A stretch of 64,000 nt of DNA from NCBI RefSeq assembly GCF_021654855.1, contig NZ_AP024202.1, positions 1 through 64,000 of the forward strand, in the 5' to 3' direction. The DNA comes from Thiomicrorhabdus immobilis (GTDB lineage Bacteria > Pseudomonadota > Gammaproteobacteria > Thiomicrospirales > Thiomicrospiraceae). Made by a program: the position numbers and the translations under genes. Below the pieces are notes generated by a model. The model saw only the letters and a program-made list of their open reading frames with translations, had not been told where the DNA came from and ran no database searches. Shown piece after piece: positions 1 to 38,452 of this stretch (positions are counted from its first letter, which is position 1; each line of letters begins with the position of its first letter).

Positions 1-100
1 AGCAGTGTCGTTATAGATTAAAAGTCGGTGTTTGAAAGTCTGCATGCCACTTAAGAAGTCGAGCAACAGATTTTCTATAGATTCTTTTGAGGATACAATT

Positions 101-1480
101 TTGTCATCACTTTGGACCCAAAGTCTTAAACACTTAGAAAACGATCTCAACGACCAGCAATTTCACACTTGGATTCGCCCTCTTCAAGCCATTGAAGAAG
201 AGTCTGTGATTCGTCTATTAGCTCCGTCCACTTTTATTTTGGATTGGGTAAATAAAAAATTGATGGACAACATTCGTCAAGCCGTTGCCATCGCTGCACC
301 GACTAATACTCCAGATGTGCAATTGGAAATTGGGGATTACGCATTGGAAGCGCTGGATGATCCAGAACCGACCGTGCCACAACCACTGCAAACCAAATCC
401 AAGGAAGCGGCCAAACCTGAGGCCAAGAAAGACAGTGCGGTCACCAACAAATCGGGGATTAAGCACAATCTTAATACCAGTTTTACGTTTGAGACCTTTG
501 TTGAAGGTAAAGCCAACCAGTTAGCCGCCGCCGCGGCACGCCAGGTGGCAGAAAATCCTGGCGGTAGCTATAACCCGTTTTTTATTTATGGTGGTGTCGG
601 TTTAGGTAAAACCCACTTGATGCACGCCATCGGCAATAAGCTGATGAAAGATAAGCCTGACGCTCGCGTAGTTTATCTGCACTCTGAACGTTTTGTAGCC
701 GATATGGTCAATGCGTTACGTCATAATAAAATTGATGAGTTCAAACGCTTCTACCGTTCATTGGATGCTTTATTAATCGATGATATTCAATTCTTTGCCA
801 ATAAAGAGCAATCTCAAGAAGAGTTCTTCCATACCTTTAATACCCTGTTAGAAGGCAACAAACAAGTCATCCTTACCAGTGACCGCTTCCCTAAAGAGGT
901 AGATGGCCTTGAAGATCGCCTGAAATCGCGTTTTGGCTGGGGCTTGACCATTGCCGTTGAACCACCAGAATTCGAAATGCGTGTGGCTATCTTGCTTAAA
1001 AAAGCCTCTGAATTTGGTGTGGTACTGCCTGATGATGTGGCGTTTTTTATTGCCAAGCGCTTGCGTGGTAACGTGCGTGACCTAGAGGGCGCCCTAAAAC
1101 GTGTTGGTGCTTATGCGCAGTTCACCCAGCAAGCCTTAACGGTTGAAGTGGTCAAAGAAGCGCTTAAAGATTTGCTGGCTTTACAGCAAAAAATGGTTAC
1201 CCTAGAAAACATTCAAAAAACCGTGGCGGATTATTATAAAATCCGAGTAGCGGATATTTTATCGAAACGCCGTTCGCGTAATGTCGCACGCCCAAGGCAG
1301 ATAGCCATGGGGATTGCAAAAGAGCTCACCAATCACAGCTTACCTGAGATTGGCGATGCGTTTGGCGGTAGAGACCACACCACGGTATTACATGCAGTTC
1401 GTAAGGTTAAAGAGTTGCGTGAAACCGATCATCATATTGATGAAGATTTTAATAGTTTAATTCGTATCATTACCAACTAG
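101..1480 (+). CDS. dnaA: Chromosomal replication initiator DnaA
   Basis: AAA+ ATPase that binds DnaA boxes and opens oriC. Seen: an N-terminal domain I beginning SSLWTQ and containing HTWIRPLQ, a variable acidic/proline linker, Walker A GGVGLGKT (about residues 164-171), Walker B LLIDDI (about 225-230), and the C-terminal DnaA-box-binding helix-turn-helix with [12 protein letters not shown] chose the TTG at 101, giving 459 aa, because GAGGA sits 7 nt upstream and the protein then begins like other DnaA proteins. The frame stays open to a TTG at 32 and an ATG at 44, but neither has a convincing ribosome site and both would add an atypical N-terminal tail. dnaN follows after 20 bp. The 100 bp upstream within the window contain no recognisable DnaA box. 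Confidence 0.96.
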
Positions 1481-1500
1481 GACTCAAAAGGGCACTTGGC

Positions 1501-2610
1501 ATGAAAATCACTTTAACTCGTGAAAATCTTTTAAAAGTTTTGCAAACCGTAGGCGGAGTGGTCGAAAAACGCCAAACCATGCCTATTTTGGGAAATATTT
1601 TATTTCAAGTTTCAGAAAACACCTTAACCGTCACCGCATCCGATTTAGAGATTGAAACACGTGCTCAAGCTGAACTAGAGTCATCTGAAGTCAGTCAATT
1701 CGCGATTACCCTTCCAGCCATGAAGTTAATCAATATCGTGCGTTCTTTACCGGATGGTTTGACCATTGTGTTAGATTTTGAAGAGTCTCGTTGTACTTTA
1801 TCAGCCGGCCGTTCACGTTTTAAACTCTCCACTTTACCTGCTGAAGATTTTCCTACCATTGACCTTTCGCAAGCCGATATGTCTTTTGCGATGTCTCAGC
1901 ACCAGTTAAAACAACTGATTCACCATTCAAGTTTTGCGATGGCGAGCCAAGATGTGCGTTTTTATCTGAATGGTATGCTGTTCGATATCAGTAACCAATC
2001 GTTACGTGTGGTGGCAACGGACGGACACCGCTTATCAACTTGCGCTACCGAATTGGCCATTGAAGGCCTAACGCCAACCCAAGCTATTTTGCCAAGAAAA
2101 GGCGTGTTGGAACTCTCTAAGCTAATTGGTGATGACGATACCTTGATTGAATTCGCGCTAGCTAAAAACTACCTCACGGTTCAATTTGAAGAGACGGTAT
2201 TCACCTGTAAATTAGTGGATGGCCGTTTCCCGGATTATCGTCGTGTAATTCCGCAACATAATGACCAGCTTGTACAAACAGACCGTGAATTGCTACGCAG
2301 TTTATTACAGCGTGCTTCGATTTTATCGAATGACAAATTCAAAGGGATTCGTTTGGTATTGAGCAATAATTTGCTTGCCGTTAATGCATCCAATAGTGAA
2401 CAAGATGAGTCGCATGAAGATATGGCCATTGACTACACCGGTACTGAGATGGAAGTCGGCTTCAACGTTAACTACATTTTGGATGTCCTTAACTCTATGC
2501 AAGAAGATTGCGTGACCATGCTGATGAAAGACGCCAATAGTAGTTGTTTGATTGAGACCACTACCGATGCGTGTCATTGTCAGCATGTAATCATGCCAAT
2601 GCGCCTCTAG
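1501..2610 (+). CDS. dnaN: DNA polymerase III beta subunit (sliding clamp)
   Basis: Ring-shaped processivity clamp that tethers Pol III and other polymerases to DNA. At 369 aa it matches the family (E. coli 366 aa). Seen: the start MKITLTRENLLKVLQ, the conserved KRQTMPILGNIL segment, VATDGHRLS near the middle, and the C-terminal MPMRL that ends most beta clamps. An AAAAGGG lies about 10 nt before the ATG. The gene follows dnaA by 20 bp and probably shares its transcript. The downstream neighbour is a metal exporter instead of recF, so the usual dnaA-dnaN-recF order is interrupted by one gene. Confidence 0.97.
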   Translation: MKITLTRENLLKVLQTVGGVVEKRQTMPILGNILFQVSENTLTVTASDLEIETRAQAELESSEVSQFAITLPAMKLINIVRSLPDGLTIVLDFEESRCTLSAGRSRFKLSTLPAEDFPTIDLSQADMSFAMSQHQLKQLIHHSSFAMASQDVRFYLNGMLFDISNQSLRVVATDGHRLSTCATELAIEGLTPTQAILPRKGVLELSKLIGDDDTLIEFALAKNYLTVQFEETVFTCKLVDGRFPDYRRVIPQHNDQLVQTDRELLRSLLQRASILSNDKFKGIRLVLSNNLLAVNASNSEQDESHEDMAIDYTGTEMEVGFNVNYILDVLNSMQEDCVTMLMKDANSSCLIETTTDACHCQHVIMPMRL

Positions 2611-2662
2611 TATTGAGGTCTTTTGCCGATAAGGCTGCCACTTCCGCGTTAGAAAACGGTCA

Positions 2663-2677
2663 TGTACAAATTGTACA
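2663..2677. repeat. 15-bp perfect palindrome downstream of dnaN
   Basis: TGTACAA-A-TTGTACA, 7-bp arms around one base, 53 bp after the dnaN stop and 130 bp before the CDF transporter start. It is followed by CTCCC and a run of T, so it could be a weak terminator. The short symmetric form also suits a dimeric repressor site for the metal exporter. I cannot decide between these. Confidence 0.35.
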
Positions 2678-2807
2678 CTCCCTTTTTTCTGCCTTGAATT
2701 GACTAGCCTTATCAACAAAATCCCTCCAAACCCACTAGTTAAACATCAATCTCCACTCACTTTTCCCAACCCTCTTTTTAAACCAACCAGCAACCTAGCA
2801 AACATTT

Positions 2808-3701
2808 ATGAATAAACCCCAGCTCGTCAGGATAGCAACCTATACCTCCGTAGTGATTGCCACTTTACTGCTTCTGCTTAAGGTCTATGCTTGGTGGTAT
2901 ACCGATTCGATTAGTATTTTGGCCTCATTATTGGATTCGGCGATTGATATTGCCGCATCGGTCATGATTGTTTTTGCGGTGCATATCGCACAAACCCCAG
3001 CCGATAAGGAACACCGCTTTGGCCATGGTAATGCGGAACCGCTCGCTGCTTTGGCGCAAAGCGTATTTATCTCCGGCTCGGCGATTTATCTCATCATCTA
3101 TTCAATCGAACGCTTTATTCACCCTCAAGCCATCCAATCGGCGGATTTGGGATTGATTGTCATGGTGATCTCCCTGATGGTCACCTTGGGGTTATTGAGC
3201 TTTCAACGTTATGTCATCAAAAAAACTCAATCTACCGCCATCAAGGCTGATTCATTGCATTATCTATCGGATGTGCTTGCCAATATACTGGTGATTATCA
3301 CCCTATGGTTCAGTGCCATCCAGTGGCTAGACCCACTGCTGGGTTTTGCCATCGCCGCTTGGATTTTTTACTCTGCGGTTCGTATAGCCATTGAGGCGGG
3401 TAATCAACTGCTTGACCATGAACTCCCTCAAGCCATGCGTGAAGAGATTAAACAAATCACGCTCGATACCACTGGGGTTCTCGGTATGAACGACCTACGA
3501 AGCTACCAGTCAGGGCCGAATAAATTTGTGCAGTTTGATTTAGAGCTTGATGACAATCTCAGCCTATTTGAGAGCCATAAAATCACCGAAAACGTCACCA
3601 AAAAACTCAGACATCGCTTTACCGATTTAGATGTCATGATCCACCAAGAACCGGCTAGCTTGAAACATGACAAATCTCACCATAACTGGGGTAAGGAGTA
3701 G
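2808..3701 (+). CDS. Cation diffusion facilitator, FieF/YiiP-like metal exporter
   Basis: Inner-membrane proton-coupled exporter of divalent metals (Zn, Fe, Cd or Mn in the family). At 297 aa it has the usual CDF size. Seen: six hydrophobic segments, the first-helix motif KVYAWWYTDSISILASLLD characteristic of FieF, metal-site Asp residues in LLDSAIDIAAS, the H-rich loop HRFGHGNAE, and HYLSDVLANI carrying the second His/Asp pair. The C-terminal cytoplasmic domain contains DVMIHQEP. It sits between dnaN and recF and ends 1 bp before the recF GTG, so the two are probably co-translated. The exact metal cannot be told from sequence. Confidence 0.9.
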   Translation: MNKPQLVRIATYTSVVIATLLLLLKVYAWWYTDSISILASLLDSAIDIAASVMIVFAVHIAQTPADKEHRFGHGNAEPLAALAQSVFISGSAIYLIIYSIERFIHPQAIQSADLGLIVMVISLMVTLGLLSFQRYVIKKTQSTAIKADSLHYLSDVLANILVIITLWFSAIQWLDPLLGFAIAAWIFYSAVRIAIEAGNQLLDHELPQAMREEIKQITLDTTGVLGMNDLRSYQSGPNKFVQFDLELDDNLSLFESHKITENVTKKLRHRFTDLDVMIHQEPASLKHDKSHHNWGKE

Positions 3702-3702
3702 C

Positions 3703-4797
3703 GTGACACAGTTAACCGAACTCAGCATTCAAAACTTTCGTAATTGTGCTTCGGCTCAATTTGAGTTTAGCCATGGCTTGAATTTGATTATTGGCAATAA
3801 TGCAGCAGGTAAAACCGCGATTATCGAGGCCATTTGGCTACTGGCTACCGGGCGTTCTTTCCGTTCACAGAAATCGCATCACCTGATTCAACATAACAAC
3901 TCTTCAGCGACACTGTTTTGCCAAACCCAATCCAGTCATAATGCAAACGATACCCACAAGATCGGTGTCCAAAAAACATTGGATAACACCCTACTGAGAA
4001 TTGATGGTGAGACCGTTAAATCACACGGGCCGATTGCCAAACTATTGCCTATCCAACTGCTCACGCCGGAAAGTCATAAACTATTGGAAGAAGGGCCTAA
4101 AGCACGACGTCAATTTATGGACTGGGGATGTTTCCACCAGTCTGACGTGTTTATGAGCGCATGGCGTAATTATCAACGTGGTTTAAAGCAACGTAACCAC
4201 GCCTTGAAAAAACGTCTGCCTAAAGAGCAAGTGCAATTGTGGGATCAAACCCTGGTGGATAGCGCCTTAAAAATAGATGAGATTCGTCAAGACTATTTAG
4301 AGGCTCTAACCCCTTATTTGGTGACGTTTTGCCAAGCGTTAATGCCAGAAATCGAATCTGAGGTGGTTTGCCAATATCGTGCTGGCTGGCCCAAAAGTAA
4401 TGAAGATTTATTGGCTTTGTATCAAGGTAACTTTACCAAGGACTTGCAGCTAGGCCATACCCAATACGGTGCGCATCGTGCCGATATCCGCTTTAAGTTC
4501 AACAATCAAGAAGCGATGAATATTTTGTCACGCGGCCAACAAAAGTTGTTTGTCTGTGCGCTATTATTAGCTCAAGCCAGTTTGCATGAAAAGGTGGTGA
4601 ACGAACCGGTGATCATGTTGATTGATGATTTACCTGCGGAGCTTGATGAAATTCACCGCACCAAACTGCTGGAACTATTACAAATCCTAAATATCCAACA
4701 TATTATCACCACCACTTCAGAGGATTTGATTCCCGTTCTCAATCCTGACACTTACCAGGCCTGGTCAATTCAAACTGGCAAAATAACAGCCAAATAA
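3703..4797 (+). CDS. recF: DNA replication and repair protein RecF
   Basis: SMC-like ATPase that helps load RecA at single-strand gaps. I chose the GTG at 3703: AAGGAG lies 4 nt upstream and the protein then starts MTQLTELSIQNFRN, as RecF does. This gives 364 aa (E. coli 357). An in-frame ATG at 3667 would overlap the upstream gene and add 12 residues. Seen: Walker A GNNAAGKT, FRSQK, the signature LSRGQQKL and Walker B MLIDDLPAELD. The last codons carry an exact copy of the 12-bp palindrome ACCAGGCCTGGT at 4754-4765, read as Y-Q-A-W. A CDF exporter gene separates it from dnaN. Confidence 0.95.
   Translation: MTQLTELSIQNFRNCASAQFEFSHGLNLIIGNNAAGKTAIIEAIWLLATGRSFRSQKSHHLIQHNNSSATLFCQTQSSHNANDTHKIGVQKTLDNTLLRIDGETVKSHGPIAKLLPIQLLTPESHKLLEEGPKARRQFMDWGCFHQSDVFMSAWRNYQRGLKQRNHALKKRLPKEQVQLWDQTLVDSALKIDEIRQDYLEALTPYLVTFCQALMPEIESEVVCQYRAGWPKSNEDLLALYQGNFTKDLQLGHTQYGAHRADIRFKFNNQEAMNILSRGQQKLFVCALLLAQASLHEKVVNEPVIMLIDDLPAELDEIHRTKLLELLQILNIQHIITTTSEDLIPVLNPDTYQAWSIQTGKITAK
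4754..4765. repeat. Interspersed palindrome ACCAGGCCTGGT, copy in recF
   Basis: Exact 12-bp copy inside the recF reading frame, 32 bp before the stop. The symmetry does not extend into the flanks. A decayed partner may lie downstream at 4845-4854 (ACCAGG followed by CTGG, one C missing). Confidence 0.9.
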
Positions 4798-4961
4798 GCT
4801 TATAGGCTTACCACCTAAATACCTGGTGATGGCTCTAAAAACCCACCAGGCTGGCAATAAATTCAACTTATTCTAGTTTCATTAATTTCTATAAGGTAAA
4901 TTACTAGTTTTGCTAAAATGTTTTTGCAAAAAAATATAATAATAATCAGAAAAGGATATTT

Positions 4962-5345
4962 ATGTCAGACCCAGTTGAAACTCCTCAACCAGTAGCAGCG
5001 TCAGAAGCCCCACAAGCTGAAATTAGCACTACGGTTCCAACCATTATCTATGTGTTGTTTTTGGCTAATTTCATTTTGCCGTTTACCAGCCTTATCGGCG
5101 TCATTATGGCGTATGTCAATAAAGGCGACGGCAATTTCCTAGACTCGCACTACCAGTTTCAAATCCGCACGTTTTGGATTGGACTGTTATATGCCATCGT
5201 AGGAATCTTATTAACCGCTGTTTTAATCGGTTGGTTAATCCTGTTGTTCTATGCCATTTGGATTATCGTCCGTTGTGTTAAAGGCTTTAAATATCTTGGT
5301 AAACAACAGCCAATGCCTGACCCGACTAGCTGGATGTTTGGGTAA
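4962..5345 (+). CDS. Small membrane protein, DUF4870-like
   Basis: A 127-aa protein with a polar Pro/Ala/Glu-rich N-terminus (residues 1-22), then about three hydrophobic segments: IIYVLFLANFILPFTSLIGV, a middle segment around WIGLLYAIVGILLTAVLIGW, and LILLFYAIWIIVRCVKG. The loop FLDSHYQFQIRTFWIG (H..FQ.RT.W) matches what I recall of the DUF4870/Tic20-like family. Function is unknown. It is preceded by AAAGGA and closed by a strong terminator at 5367-5395, so it is probably monocistronic. Confidence 0.75.
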   Translation: MSDPVETPQPVAASEAPQAEISTTVPTIIYVLFLANFILPFTSLIGVIMAYVNKGDGNFLDSHYQFQIRTFWIGLLYAIVGILLTAVLIGWLILLFYAIWIIVRCVKGFKYLGKQQPMPDPTSWMFG

Positions 5346-5366
5346 TATTTTCACCAAAAAAATGCA

Positions 5367-5395
5367 CTAAAAAGGTCGCTCTGCGACCTTTTTAG
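5367..5395 (+). terminator. Intrinsic terminator after the DUF4870-like gene
   Basis: 13-bp perfect stem beginning CTAAAAAGGTCGC, loop TCT, then the complementary arm ending in TTTTTAG. The A-tract/T-tract symmetry would allow it to work in both directions. Confidence 0.85.
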
Positions 5396-8154
<2,759 letters not shown>

Positions 8155-35814: not shown

Positions 35815-36426
35815 TCAATCTAAATAAAAGGTCACTTCCTCGACAGTTTTACGTTTAGATTGGTTTTTTAGCTGACAATTTTCTTCAATATTACCCAAAT
35901 ACAAAGCTCCAATTAATTGGATTTGTGACGGTTCAATTGATAAATTTTGATAGGTTCTTGGATCATTGATAATCGGTCCAGTACTCCACTGCACCCCTAT
36001 TTTTTGTTGCCAAGCCATCAGTTGAAAATTTTGAATGGCGCAAGCACAAGCTGCATAATCTTCTTGGCGAACGGTACTGTCTTGCGCCAAGACTTGACCT
36101 ACCAATATCACCTGAGGAATGGCCATAAATTTCTCAAGCGCTTTTTGGTAAAAACCGGCATAACATTCAGTGTCTGTTTGAGATTTTTTACTGGCTCGGT
36201 TGTCTGCATAGACTTCCGCCAATCGGTTTTTAAGTTTTTCACCGACCACATAAAATTGCCAAGGCTGAGTCAATTTATGGTTAGGTGCCCAGATGGCCGC
36301 TTGTAAACAATTATTCAATTTAGTGTCATCCAGCGGATAAATTTCTTTATCTAAAAACTGATAACATGTACGTCTTGATTTGATTAAATTCAATAAGGAT
36401 TCAGTATTGATTTGATTAAATTCCAT
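35815..36426 (-). CDS. Nitroreductase-family flavoprotein
   Basis: FMN-dependent oxidoreductase, 203 aa. Seen: IKSRRTCYQFLDKEI near the N-terminus (RR plus FMN phosphate contact), AAIWAPNHKLTQPWQFYVV, and a late GVQWSTGPIINDP and LIGALYLG, the usual YdjA/YdgI-like pattern. The substrate cannot be inferred. It is transcribed away from the DnaA-box cluster that begins about 45 bp upstream of its start, so its promoter must lie inside or next to the candidate origin. Confidence 0.88.
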   Translation of the reverse strand: MEFNQINTESLLNLIKSRRTCYQFLDKEIYPLDDTKLNNCLQAAIWAPNHKLTQPWQFYVVGEKLKNRLAEVYADNRASKKSQTDTECYAGFYQKALEKFMAIPQVILVGQVLAQDSTVRQEDYAACACAIQNFQLMAWQQKIGVQWSTGPIINDPRTYQNLSIEPSQIQLIGALYLGNIEENCQLKNQSKRKTVEEVTFYLD

Positions 36427-36439
36427 CCAAAAAATATTC

Positions 36440-36756
36440 CTTTGTTTGTAGCCTATATTTGACTATAAGCCCTATGGATAACTTATGTATATTTGTGGAT
36501 AACTATACATAAAATTGAAAACCGAAATTTTATCCACAATTCACGCACACTTACACACATACTTTATCAGAAACTATGCACACAGCTTAATCACAAACTA
36601 ACTATTTGATAAAATACTCAAAATCTGACTTATCTACACAATTGTTTGTACTAATAAGAATAAAAAGAAGTTATATATAAAGAAAATATATACTTTACTT
36701 ACCTAGCCAATTATCCACTACATTCAATAAATAACGACTTTAATAAAGACCTTTTT
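36440..36756. other. oriC: Candidate replication origin (oriC) with clustered DnaA boxes
   Basis: This is the AT-rich gap between divergent genes. Two perfect DnaA boxes: TGTGGATAA (36494-36502, minus) and TTATCCACA (36530-36538, plus). Six one-mismatch boxes: TATGGATAA 36473, TTACACACA 36551, CTATGCACA 36574, TTAATCACA 36587, TTATCTACA 36630 and TTATCCACT 36711. A 30-bp stretch of almost pure A/T around 36669-36698 (GTTATATATAAAGAAAATAT) could be the unwinding element. No GATC sites are seen, so SeqA-type control is not expected. dnaA lies about 35 kb away, comparable to E. coli. The parS sites at 18.9 and 49.9-58.5 kb flank it. Confidence 0.72.
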
Positions 36757-37680
36757 ATGACATTAAATGAACTTAAATATATCGTAGCGGTTGCTAAAGA
36801 AAAACATTTTAGAAAAGCTTCTGAAATCTGTTTTGTTAGCCAACCAACTTTAAGTGTAGCGATTAAAAAGCTCGAAGATGAATTAGGTGTTACTCTATTC
36901 GAAAGACGTAAACAGGATGTTTTGGTTACCCCTATAGGTAAACAGATTATTGGCATTGCAGAAGAGATACTGGAACGTAGCAAAGATATCAAACAGATCG
37001 CTAAAGAAGCACAAGGGGATTTGACTACCGAACTGAAGATTGGCGCTATCTATACGATTGCCCCATATCTACTTCCTAAACTGATTCCCAGTTTTCATAA
37101 AATTGCCCCCAATATCCCTTTGGTGATAGAAGAAAATTACACCCATGTATTAGCCGATAAATTAAAATCCGGTGAATTGGATATTGTGATTCTCTCTTTG
37201 CCTTTTGATGAACCCAATATTGAAACTTATAATCTCTATGAAGAGACCTTTAGCGCCATTGTTCCTAATGAACATCCTTTGGCTAACAGCACTAAACCGG
37301 TTGACTTGGAAAGCTTAGAAGATGAAACTATCCTATTATTGGGTTCGGGGCACTGTTTTAGGGATCAAGTGGTAGAAGCTTTTCCTGGTTTGACCAATCT
37401 GAATTTACAAAATAGTCGTTTGCAAAAGACGTTTGAAGGCAGTTCATTGGAAACAATCCGATATATGGTTTCTTCAGGTGCTGGTATCTCCATATTTCCA
37501 TGTACATCGCTCTCAGAACGCGATGAAGAGCTTTTTACCATTAAACCCATAAAATCCCCCGTTCCTAAAAGAACGGTTGCCCTTGCATGGCGTAAGACGT
37601 TTTCACGTATGCAAGCGTTAGAACTATTCAAACAGGCTATCGAATCCATCAAAATACCCTGTACACAGTCCTCACAATAA
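36757..37680 (+). CDS. OxyR-like LysR-family regulator
   Basis: Transcription factor of 307 aa with an N-terminal winged helix (LNELKYIVAVAKEKHFRKAS, FVSQPTLSVAIKKLEDELG) and a substrate domain very like OxyR (LLGSGHCFRDQVVEAFPGL). E. coli OxyR senses peroxide with Cys199 in GHCLRDQ and the resolving Cys208 nine residues later. Here the first Cys is present but the position nine residues on is Phe. It may sense peroxide differently or form an intermolecular link. It may have a promoter within the candidate oriC. mlaA follows 22 bp later. Confidence 0.88.
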   Translation: MTLNELKYIVAVAKEKHFRKASEICFVSQPTLSVAIKKLEDELGVTLFERRKQDVLVTPIGKQIIGIAEEILERSKDIKQIAKEAQGDLTTELKIGAIYTIAPYLLPKLIPSFHKIAPNIPLVIEENYTHVLADKLKSGELDIVILSLPFDEPNIETYNLYEETFSAIVPNEHPLANSTKPVDLESLEDETILLLGSGHCFRDQVVEAFPGLTNLNLQNSRLQKTFEGSSLETIRYMVSSGAGISIFPCTSLSERDEELFTIKPIKSPVPKRTVALAWRKTFSRMQALELFKQAIESIKIPCTQSSQ

Positions 37681-37702: not shown

Positions 37703-38452
37703 ATGAAATTATTCCCCTCGCTACTATTAGCCTGTTTGATGTTTAGCCCGATGACTCATGCTGAAAGCGATTCGACTAAAGTTAATAAAAACCCCATGAA
37801 TCCACAGGATCCATACGAATCTTTTAACCGAGTCATGTTTGATTTCAATATGGGGTTCAATGATACCTTCGGTAGACCGATTGCAGATGCTTATAACGGT
37901 ATTTTGCCGCAACCAGCCAGAACAGGGATCAATAATGTTTTTGATAACCTTAAAACCCCGTTATCGGCGATAAACTGTTTTTTACAGGGTAAGGTCGAAG
38001 ATGGTTTATCCGAGATTATGCGTTTTACCCTCAACAGTACCTTTGGTTTGCTTGGCTTATTAGATGTAGCCGAACCAGCAGGTTTAGAAGCTAAATATGA
38101 AGATTTTGGACAAACCCTTTTTCACTGGGGAGTGTGGAATGAAAGTAGCTATCTGGTTTTACCAATAGTGGGTTCTTATACCACACGAGAATTGGTAGGC
38201 GGGCTGAGTGAAAGTAGCGTTGATCCTATCTATGCTACGATTTTGGAAGATACCGATACATCCGGCCGTATTATGATTTTTATGGGTGATAAGTTTGTCA
38301 AATATACCAAAGTGGTAAAACTTCTTGAAGACATCAAATCACAGCCCGACCCCTATGTATTTAGTCGTGAGAGTTACTTACAGTATAGAACCAATCTTAT
38401 TTTTGATGGTAAAGCCCCACAAGCTAATTTAGATGATTTTAATTTTGAATAA
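37703..38452 (+). CDS. mlaA: MlaA/VacJ-family outer-membrane lipid-asymmetry protein
   Basis: Removes phospholipids from the outer leaflet of the outer membrane and hands them to the Mla pathway. 249 aa. Seen: DPYESFNRVMFDFNMGFND, the hallmark NPQDPYE-type start of MlaA; NNVFDNLKTPLSAINCFLQGK; RFTLNSTFGLLGLLDVA; and EDFGQTLFHWGVWNESSYLVLPIVG. The leader holds LLLAC, which could be a lipobox with Cys11, or a normal signal peptide cut after THA. No other mla gene is present. It sits between the OxyR-like gene and a hybrid kinase, closely spaced. Confidence 0.92.
   Translation: MKLFPSLLLACLMFSPMTHAESDSTKVNKNPMNPQDPYESFNRVMFDFNMGFNDTFGRPIADAYNGILPQPARTGINNVFDNLKTPLSAINCFLQGKVEDGLSEIMRFTLNSTFGLLGLLDVAEPAGLEAKYEDFGQTLFHWGVWNESSYLVLPIVGSYTTRELVGGLSESSVDPIYATILEDTDTSGRIMIFMGDKFVKYTKVVKLLEDIKSQPDPYVFSRESYLQYRTNLIFDGKAPQANLDDFNFE

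Follow-up and report, generated by a model that had tools for sequence, protein, structure and literature searches.

A predicted chromosomal replication origin beside an oxyR-like gene, 36 kb from dnaA, in Thiomicrorhabdus immobilis

Introduction

Where does replication of the chromosome begin in the sulfur-oxidizing bacterium Thiomicrorhabdus immobilis? In bacteria, the gap between rpmH and dnaA or between dnaA and dnaN is a common site for the origin. The T. immobilis genome is a single contig of 2,539,444 bp in which dnaA starts at base 32, and the window analyzed here is the first 64 kb of that contig (64,000 nucleotides). A sequence-only reading of the window placed a candidate oriC away from dnaA, in a 330-bp gap (36427–36756) between two divergent genes. 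On its left lies a nitroreductase-family gene (35815–36426, minus strand). On its right lies a gene for an OxyR-like LysR regulator (36757–37680, plus strand). Among named organisms the nearest to this genome is Thiomicrorhabdus sp. Milos-T2, whose OxyR-like protein is 91% identical. The dnaA gene itself (32–1480, plus strand) is transcribed towards the gap.

Results

Using the consensus TTATNCACA and counting perfect or one-mismatch matches, we located eight DnaA boxes in the gap, two on the minus strand followed by six on the plus strand. The outermost minus-strand box has one mismatch (TTATCCATA, 36473–36481) and was supported by both the box scan and the family alignment. It is followed by two perfect boxes (TTATCCACA) at 36494–36502 (minus) and 36530–36538 (plus), which form an inverted pair spaced 36 bp from start to start and are the only perfect boxes in the window. 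Five one-mismatch boxes continue on the plus strand: TTACACACA at 36551–36559, the R5M-like CTATGCACA at 36574–36582, TTAATCACA at 36587–36595, the R1-like TTATCTACA at 36630–36638, and TTATCCACT at 36711–36719. The R5M-like box and its neighbor start 56 and 43 bp before the R1-like box, respectively. Boxes over the whole window are at chance level (85 versus 80 expected). When the gap was shuffled 5000 times with its dinucleotide composition preserved, no shuffle reached eight boxes in 330 bp (mean 0.8, maximum 5), and the gap is the box-richest 330-bp window in the 864 kb of chromosome sampled, followed by the region upstream of dnaA.

The R1-like box adjoins a nearly pure A/T stretch (36642–36701), which we predict to be the DNA unwinding element (DUE) on the basis of duplex instability, the family alignment, and comparison with E. 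coli. Its 60 bp rank within the least stable 0.014% of sampled windows, and a 45-bp core (36652–36696) within the least stable 0.006%. The motif CTAATAAGA, complementary to the end of 13-mer R in E. coli, occurs within this element at 36651–36659, 12 bp after the R1-like box. Among the 13-mers L, M, and R next to R1, this R-type motif alone was found; L and M are not clear. Read by eye, the T-rich strand of the element contains the ssDUE motif TTATT and lacks TTGT, which speaks against the gap as oriC. A DnaA-trio, the basal unwinding system of the B. subtilis type, was also looked for by eye beside the last box, where the repeats fall out of the expected phase.

An exact match to the IHF consensus (WATCAANNNNTTR, 36599–36611, minus strand) provides a candidate IHF site 31 bp before the R1-like box, and the genome carries a gene for IHF alpha. 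In 23 of 49 relatives, the IHF motif (at most one mismatch) stands exactly 31 bp before a box; other spacings or control motifs reached at most 4 of the 49. The gap contains no GATC site, and no seqA gene was detected in the genome. An Rfam scan of the gap region returned no RNA family above threshold, and a search of the gap for promoters gave hits at chance level. What the sequence-only reading had described at this locus was thus borne out: the scan reproduced its two perfect and six one-mismatch boxes in both orientations, its A/T stretch is real, and the distance of about 35 kb that it gave to dnaA measures 35–36 kb.

GC skew was computed from sampled chromosome stretches, with unbroken coverage of the origin and terminus regions. 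Between ~40 kb and 1.30 Mb the skew is positive; from 1.32 Mb through the contig end and on to ~36 kb it is negative. Within an unbroken 104-kb stretch around dnaA, cumulative skew reaches its minimum at 37,829, and the change point of a step model is 38 kb (95% interval 34–40 kb). Moving the change point to the gap costs 3.7 log-likelihood units, versus 26.0 for dnaA. The cumulative maximum lies at 1,306,423, next to the sole dif-like site (C1:1306899–1306924, TTCGTATAATATATATTATGTTAAAT; matching at all but two of 26 positions, with no hit for control motifs). Position 1,306,313 lies opposite the gap and position 1,270,478 opposite dnaA, so that the maximum and the dif-like site fall within 0.6 kb of the former and 36 kb from the latter. 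Measured from the gap to dif, one arm is 1.2 kb longer than the other. The skew change that had been guessed from spot counts in a few genes is real. The minimum, anticipated at 36.4–36.8 kb, was found 1.1 kb from there, and the gap faces both the maximum and the dif-like site across the chromosome.

Gene orientation between dnaA and the gap gives a different impression. Plus-strand genes take up 75% of ORF length at 1–36 kb but average 35% in the left arm, a pattern that would suit an origin at dnaA and is a point against the gap. At four-fold degenerate sites, however, plus-strand genes in this segment have a coding-strand GC skew of −0.178 (interval −0.231 to −0.117). This equals the value for left-arm lagging-strand genes (−0.182) rather than that for right-arm leading-strand genes (+0.089), indicating that the segment is replicated from the right and that the genes dnaA, dnaN, recF, and gyrB at 32–8154 are head-on to the fork.

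Sites resembling parS (one to two mismatches) occur at C1 18901, 49864, 52794, 58523, 65652, 74584, 95001, and 120813. Nearly all lie to the right of dnaA, clustered at 19–121 kb, and parB is at 2,512,651. These sites support this region as the origin and cannot discriminate between 0 and 36 kb.

We then compared the locus across the family, where dnaA was found in 63 of 63 genomes and the OxyR-like gene in 56. When 49 gaps were aligned, conservation extended to the inverted pair, an IHF-like motif, the two boxes that start at 36587 and 36630, and the beginning of the A/T element. The pair TGTGGATAA-N27-TTATCCACA (at most one mismatch) occurs in 37 of the 63 genomes, once in each, and control patterns gave no matches. 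It lies directly upstream of oxyR in 36 of them and on a separate contig end in the other. Outside the family, the 36-bp pair was found in 8 of 272 genomes of the class. In a gammaproteobacterium of another family, the same inverted pair with 36-bp spacing is located between dnaA and dnaN (L297, 1501–1545). Beside the gap, oxyR and mlaA are retained, and the nitroreductase gene is absent in some relatives. In a distant genus (g2; G001–G004), no box cluster was found upstream of the oxyR relative, which counts against the gap as oriC; upstream of dnaA, the three g2 genomes examined have at most one box.

Long stretches were read in five relatives in which dnaA lies 64–105 kb from the gap (G006, G010, G016, G027, and G062). 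In all of these except G006, the skew changes 0–4 kb from the gap and 61–105 kb from dnaA. The skew minimum of G006 (about 1001953) is 22 kb past the gap and 111 kb from dnaA, an offset that argues against the gap and that perhaps stems from a recent inversion. Over the six genomes, the log-likelihood loss ranges from 26 to 101 for dnaA and from 0.1 to 8.5 for the gap.

Discussion

The gap at 36427–36756 is very probably the chromosomal oriC of T. immobilis. In silico, it combines what is expected of a DnaA-dependent origin, namely a box cluster beyond chance, a skew minimum with a terminus opposite, and an adjacent A/T-rich element. The proposal of an oriC away from dnaA is upheld by the skew minimum, by the maximum and dif-like site opposite, and by the recurrence of the pattern in relatives whose dnaA lies further off.

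The obvious competitor is the region just upstream of dnaA, outside the window, where the sequence-only reading had suggested that a rival box cluster might be found. Such a cluster does exist across the contig junction (L009 19715–19780; C1:2539159 onward), with three perfect boxes and one one-mismatch box in tandem, all in one direction. Relatives carry three or four boxes there, pointing towards dnaA and usually spaced by ~13/12/30 bp, and the cluster is kept in nearly all relatives outside genus g2. The true origin could then lie at dnaA, the oxyR gap being a secondary DnaA-binding site. The conserved boxes, the orientation of the genes at 1–36 kb, and a neighborhood of the common rpmH–dnaA kind, with rpmH 2 kb away, would all suit this reading. 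Yet none of the six genomes shows a skew turn at dnaA, the likelihood loss is far larger there, the dif-like site and skew maximum stand opposite the gap, and four-fold-site skew has the intervening segment replicated from the right. The boxes there all face one way, and CTAATAAGA was not found among them. We regard an origin at dnaA as very improbable, and a dnaA-adjacent origin was rejected on skew and dif. The existence of the cluster does not refute the gap as oriC because the skew does not change there, and the cluster is more likely an autoregulatory site of dnaA or a relic of an older origin.

A split origin, in which the dnaA-upstream cluster aids an initiation that opens at the gap, would account for the conservation of both clusters through the family. 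Bipartite origins occur in B. subtilis and H. pylori, but known split origins span about one gene, whereas the clusters here are 19–105 kb apart with variable sides and orientations, and cooperation of this kind seems just as improbable as an origin at dnaA. Least credible of all is that the gap is a DnaA-titrating or -resetting site like datA or DARS, or a DnaA-controlled divergent promoter: datA and DARS2 do likewise combine DnaA boxes with IHF (PMC5742627), and a gap between two divergent genes must contain promoters, but such a site would leave the skew minimum, the dif symmetry, the unstable A/T element, and the E. coli-like spacing from R1 to the DUE unexplained, and would not explain why the gap tracks the skew minimum across genomes.

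If the gap is oriC, its mode of action may be modeled on E. coli. DnaA would occupy the high-affinity inverted pair (36494 minus, 36530 plus) and the R1-like box (36630 plus), and would then assemble on the weaker forward boxes in between. IHF bound at 36599–36611 would bend the DNA, allowing the DnaA molecules at the R5M-like and R1-like boxes to capture the T-rich strand of the A/T element. Opening of this element (36642–36701) would permit helicase loading, and two forks would depart, one towards oxyR and one towards dnaA, to meet near dif at 1.307 Mb. Control by SeqA is unlikely, given that neither a seqA gene nor a GATC site in the gap was found.

With the gap treated as the origin in every genome, dnaA faces the fork head-on in 30 of the 38 genomes that carry both dnaA and the OxyR-like gene on one contig. 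This orientation is found in 21 of 21 genomes of genus g1, 8 of 9 of g3, the single genome of g7, and 0 of 7 of g6. It is conceivable, though we consider it improbable, that the origin left dnaA long ago in Thiomicrorhabdus and related genera and stayed by oxyR, and that many speciations since then have preserved the head-on orientation of the dnaA-dnaN-recF-gyrB block, possibly because a fork that runs against dnaA transcription shortly after initiation feeds back on initiator synthesis, with the dnaA box cluster kept within that control. As dnaA is head-on in most genera and co-directional in g6 (7 of 7), the family offers a natural setting in which the cost or use of a head-on dnaA can be tested.

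Our literature search found no paper on the oriC of Thiomicrorhabdus or Hydrogenovibrio; one paper naming both concerns ushA-like genes. As far as this search shows, the kind of element is already known, and what is new is its address, its constant neighbor oxyR, and the head-on dnaA block. The analysis assigns a predicted origin to a genome whose numbering starts at dnaA and, through conservation, to most of the family.

Several known systems invite comparison. Like origins of the rpmH–dnaA or dnaA–dnaN type, the gap has TTATCCACA boxes and an A/T-rich element, and a box cluster is still present upstream of dnaA. The origin judged by skew is nevertheless 36 kb away here, with dnaA as a lagging-strand gene. 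DoriC and Ori-Finder list Gammaproteobacteria with two predicted oriCs, among which a gidA (mnmG) neighbor and GATC sites were decisive (PMC6323995). The genome of T. immobilis, likewise gammaproteobacterial, also holds two candidate box clusters, but neither mnmG nor GATC marks its origin, so that indicator-gene rules could mislead. Automated origin prediction guided by dnaA or mnmG could pick the wrong position in this genome.

The closest likeness is to E. coli oriC, for which the layout and the ssDUE-recruitment mechanism have been described (PMC5742627). We oriented the E. coli sequence (MG1655, NC_000913.3:3925744–3925975) with the unwinding element on the right. The two origins differ in their neighbors, mioC and mnmG in E. 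coli and nitroreductase and oxyR here, with mnmG at 2,514,771, ~60 kb from the gap. E. coli oriC also has many GATC sites and SeqA control, which the gap and genome appear to lack, and the gap is without clear 13-mers L and M. Conversely, nothing in E. coli oriC obviously corresponds to the inner inverted pair with its 36-bp spacing. Both lie away from dnaA and carry DnaA boxes of opposite directions in their two halves, with an IHF site between R5M and R1 and an A/T-rich element beyond, so that the order R5M-IHF-R1-DUE is shared at nearly the same spacing. R5M starts 55 bp before R1 in E. coli, against 43 and 56 bp for the two boxes in the gap, and CTAATAAGA follows R1 by 13 bp, against 12 bp. 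The IHF site starts 31 bp before R1 in the same orientation in both, with two mismatches in E. coli and an exact consensus in the gap. An E. coli-like origin layout can evidently persist beside entirely different genes.
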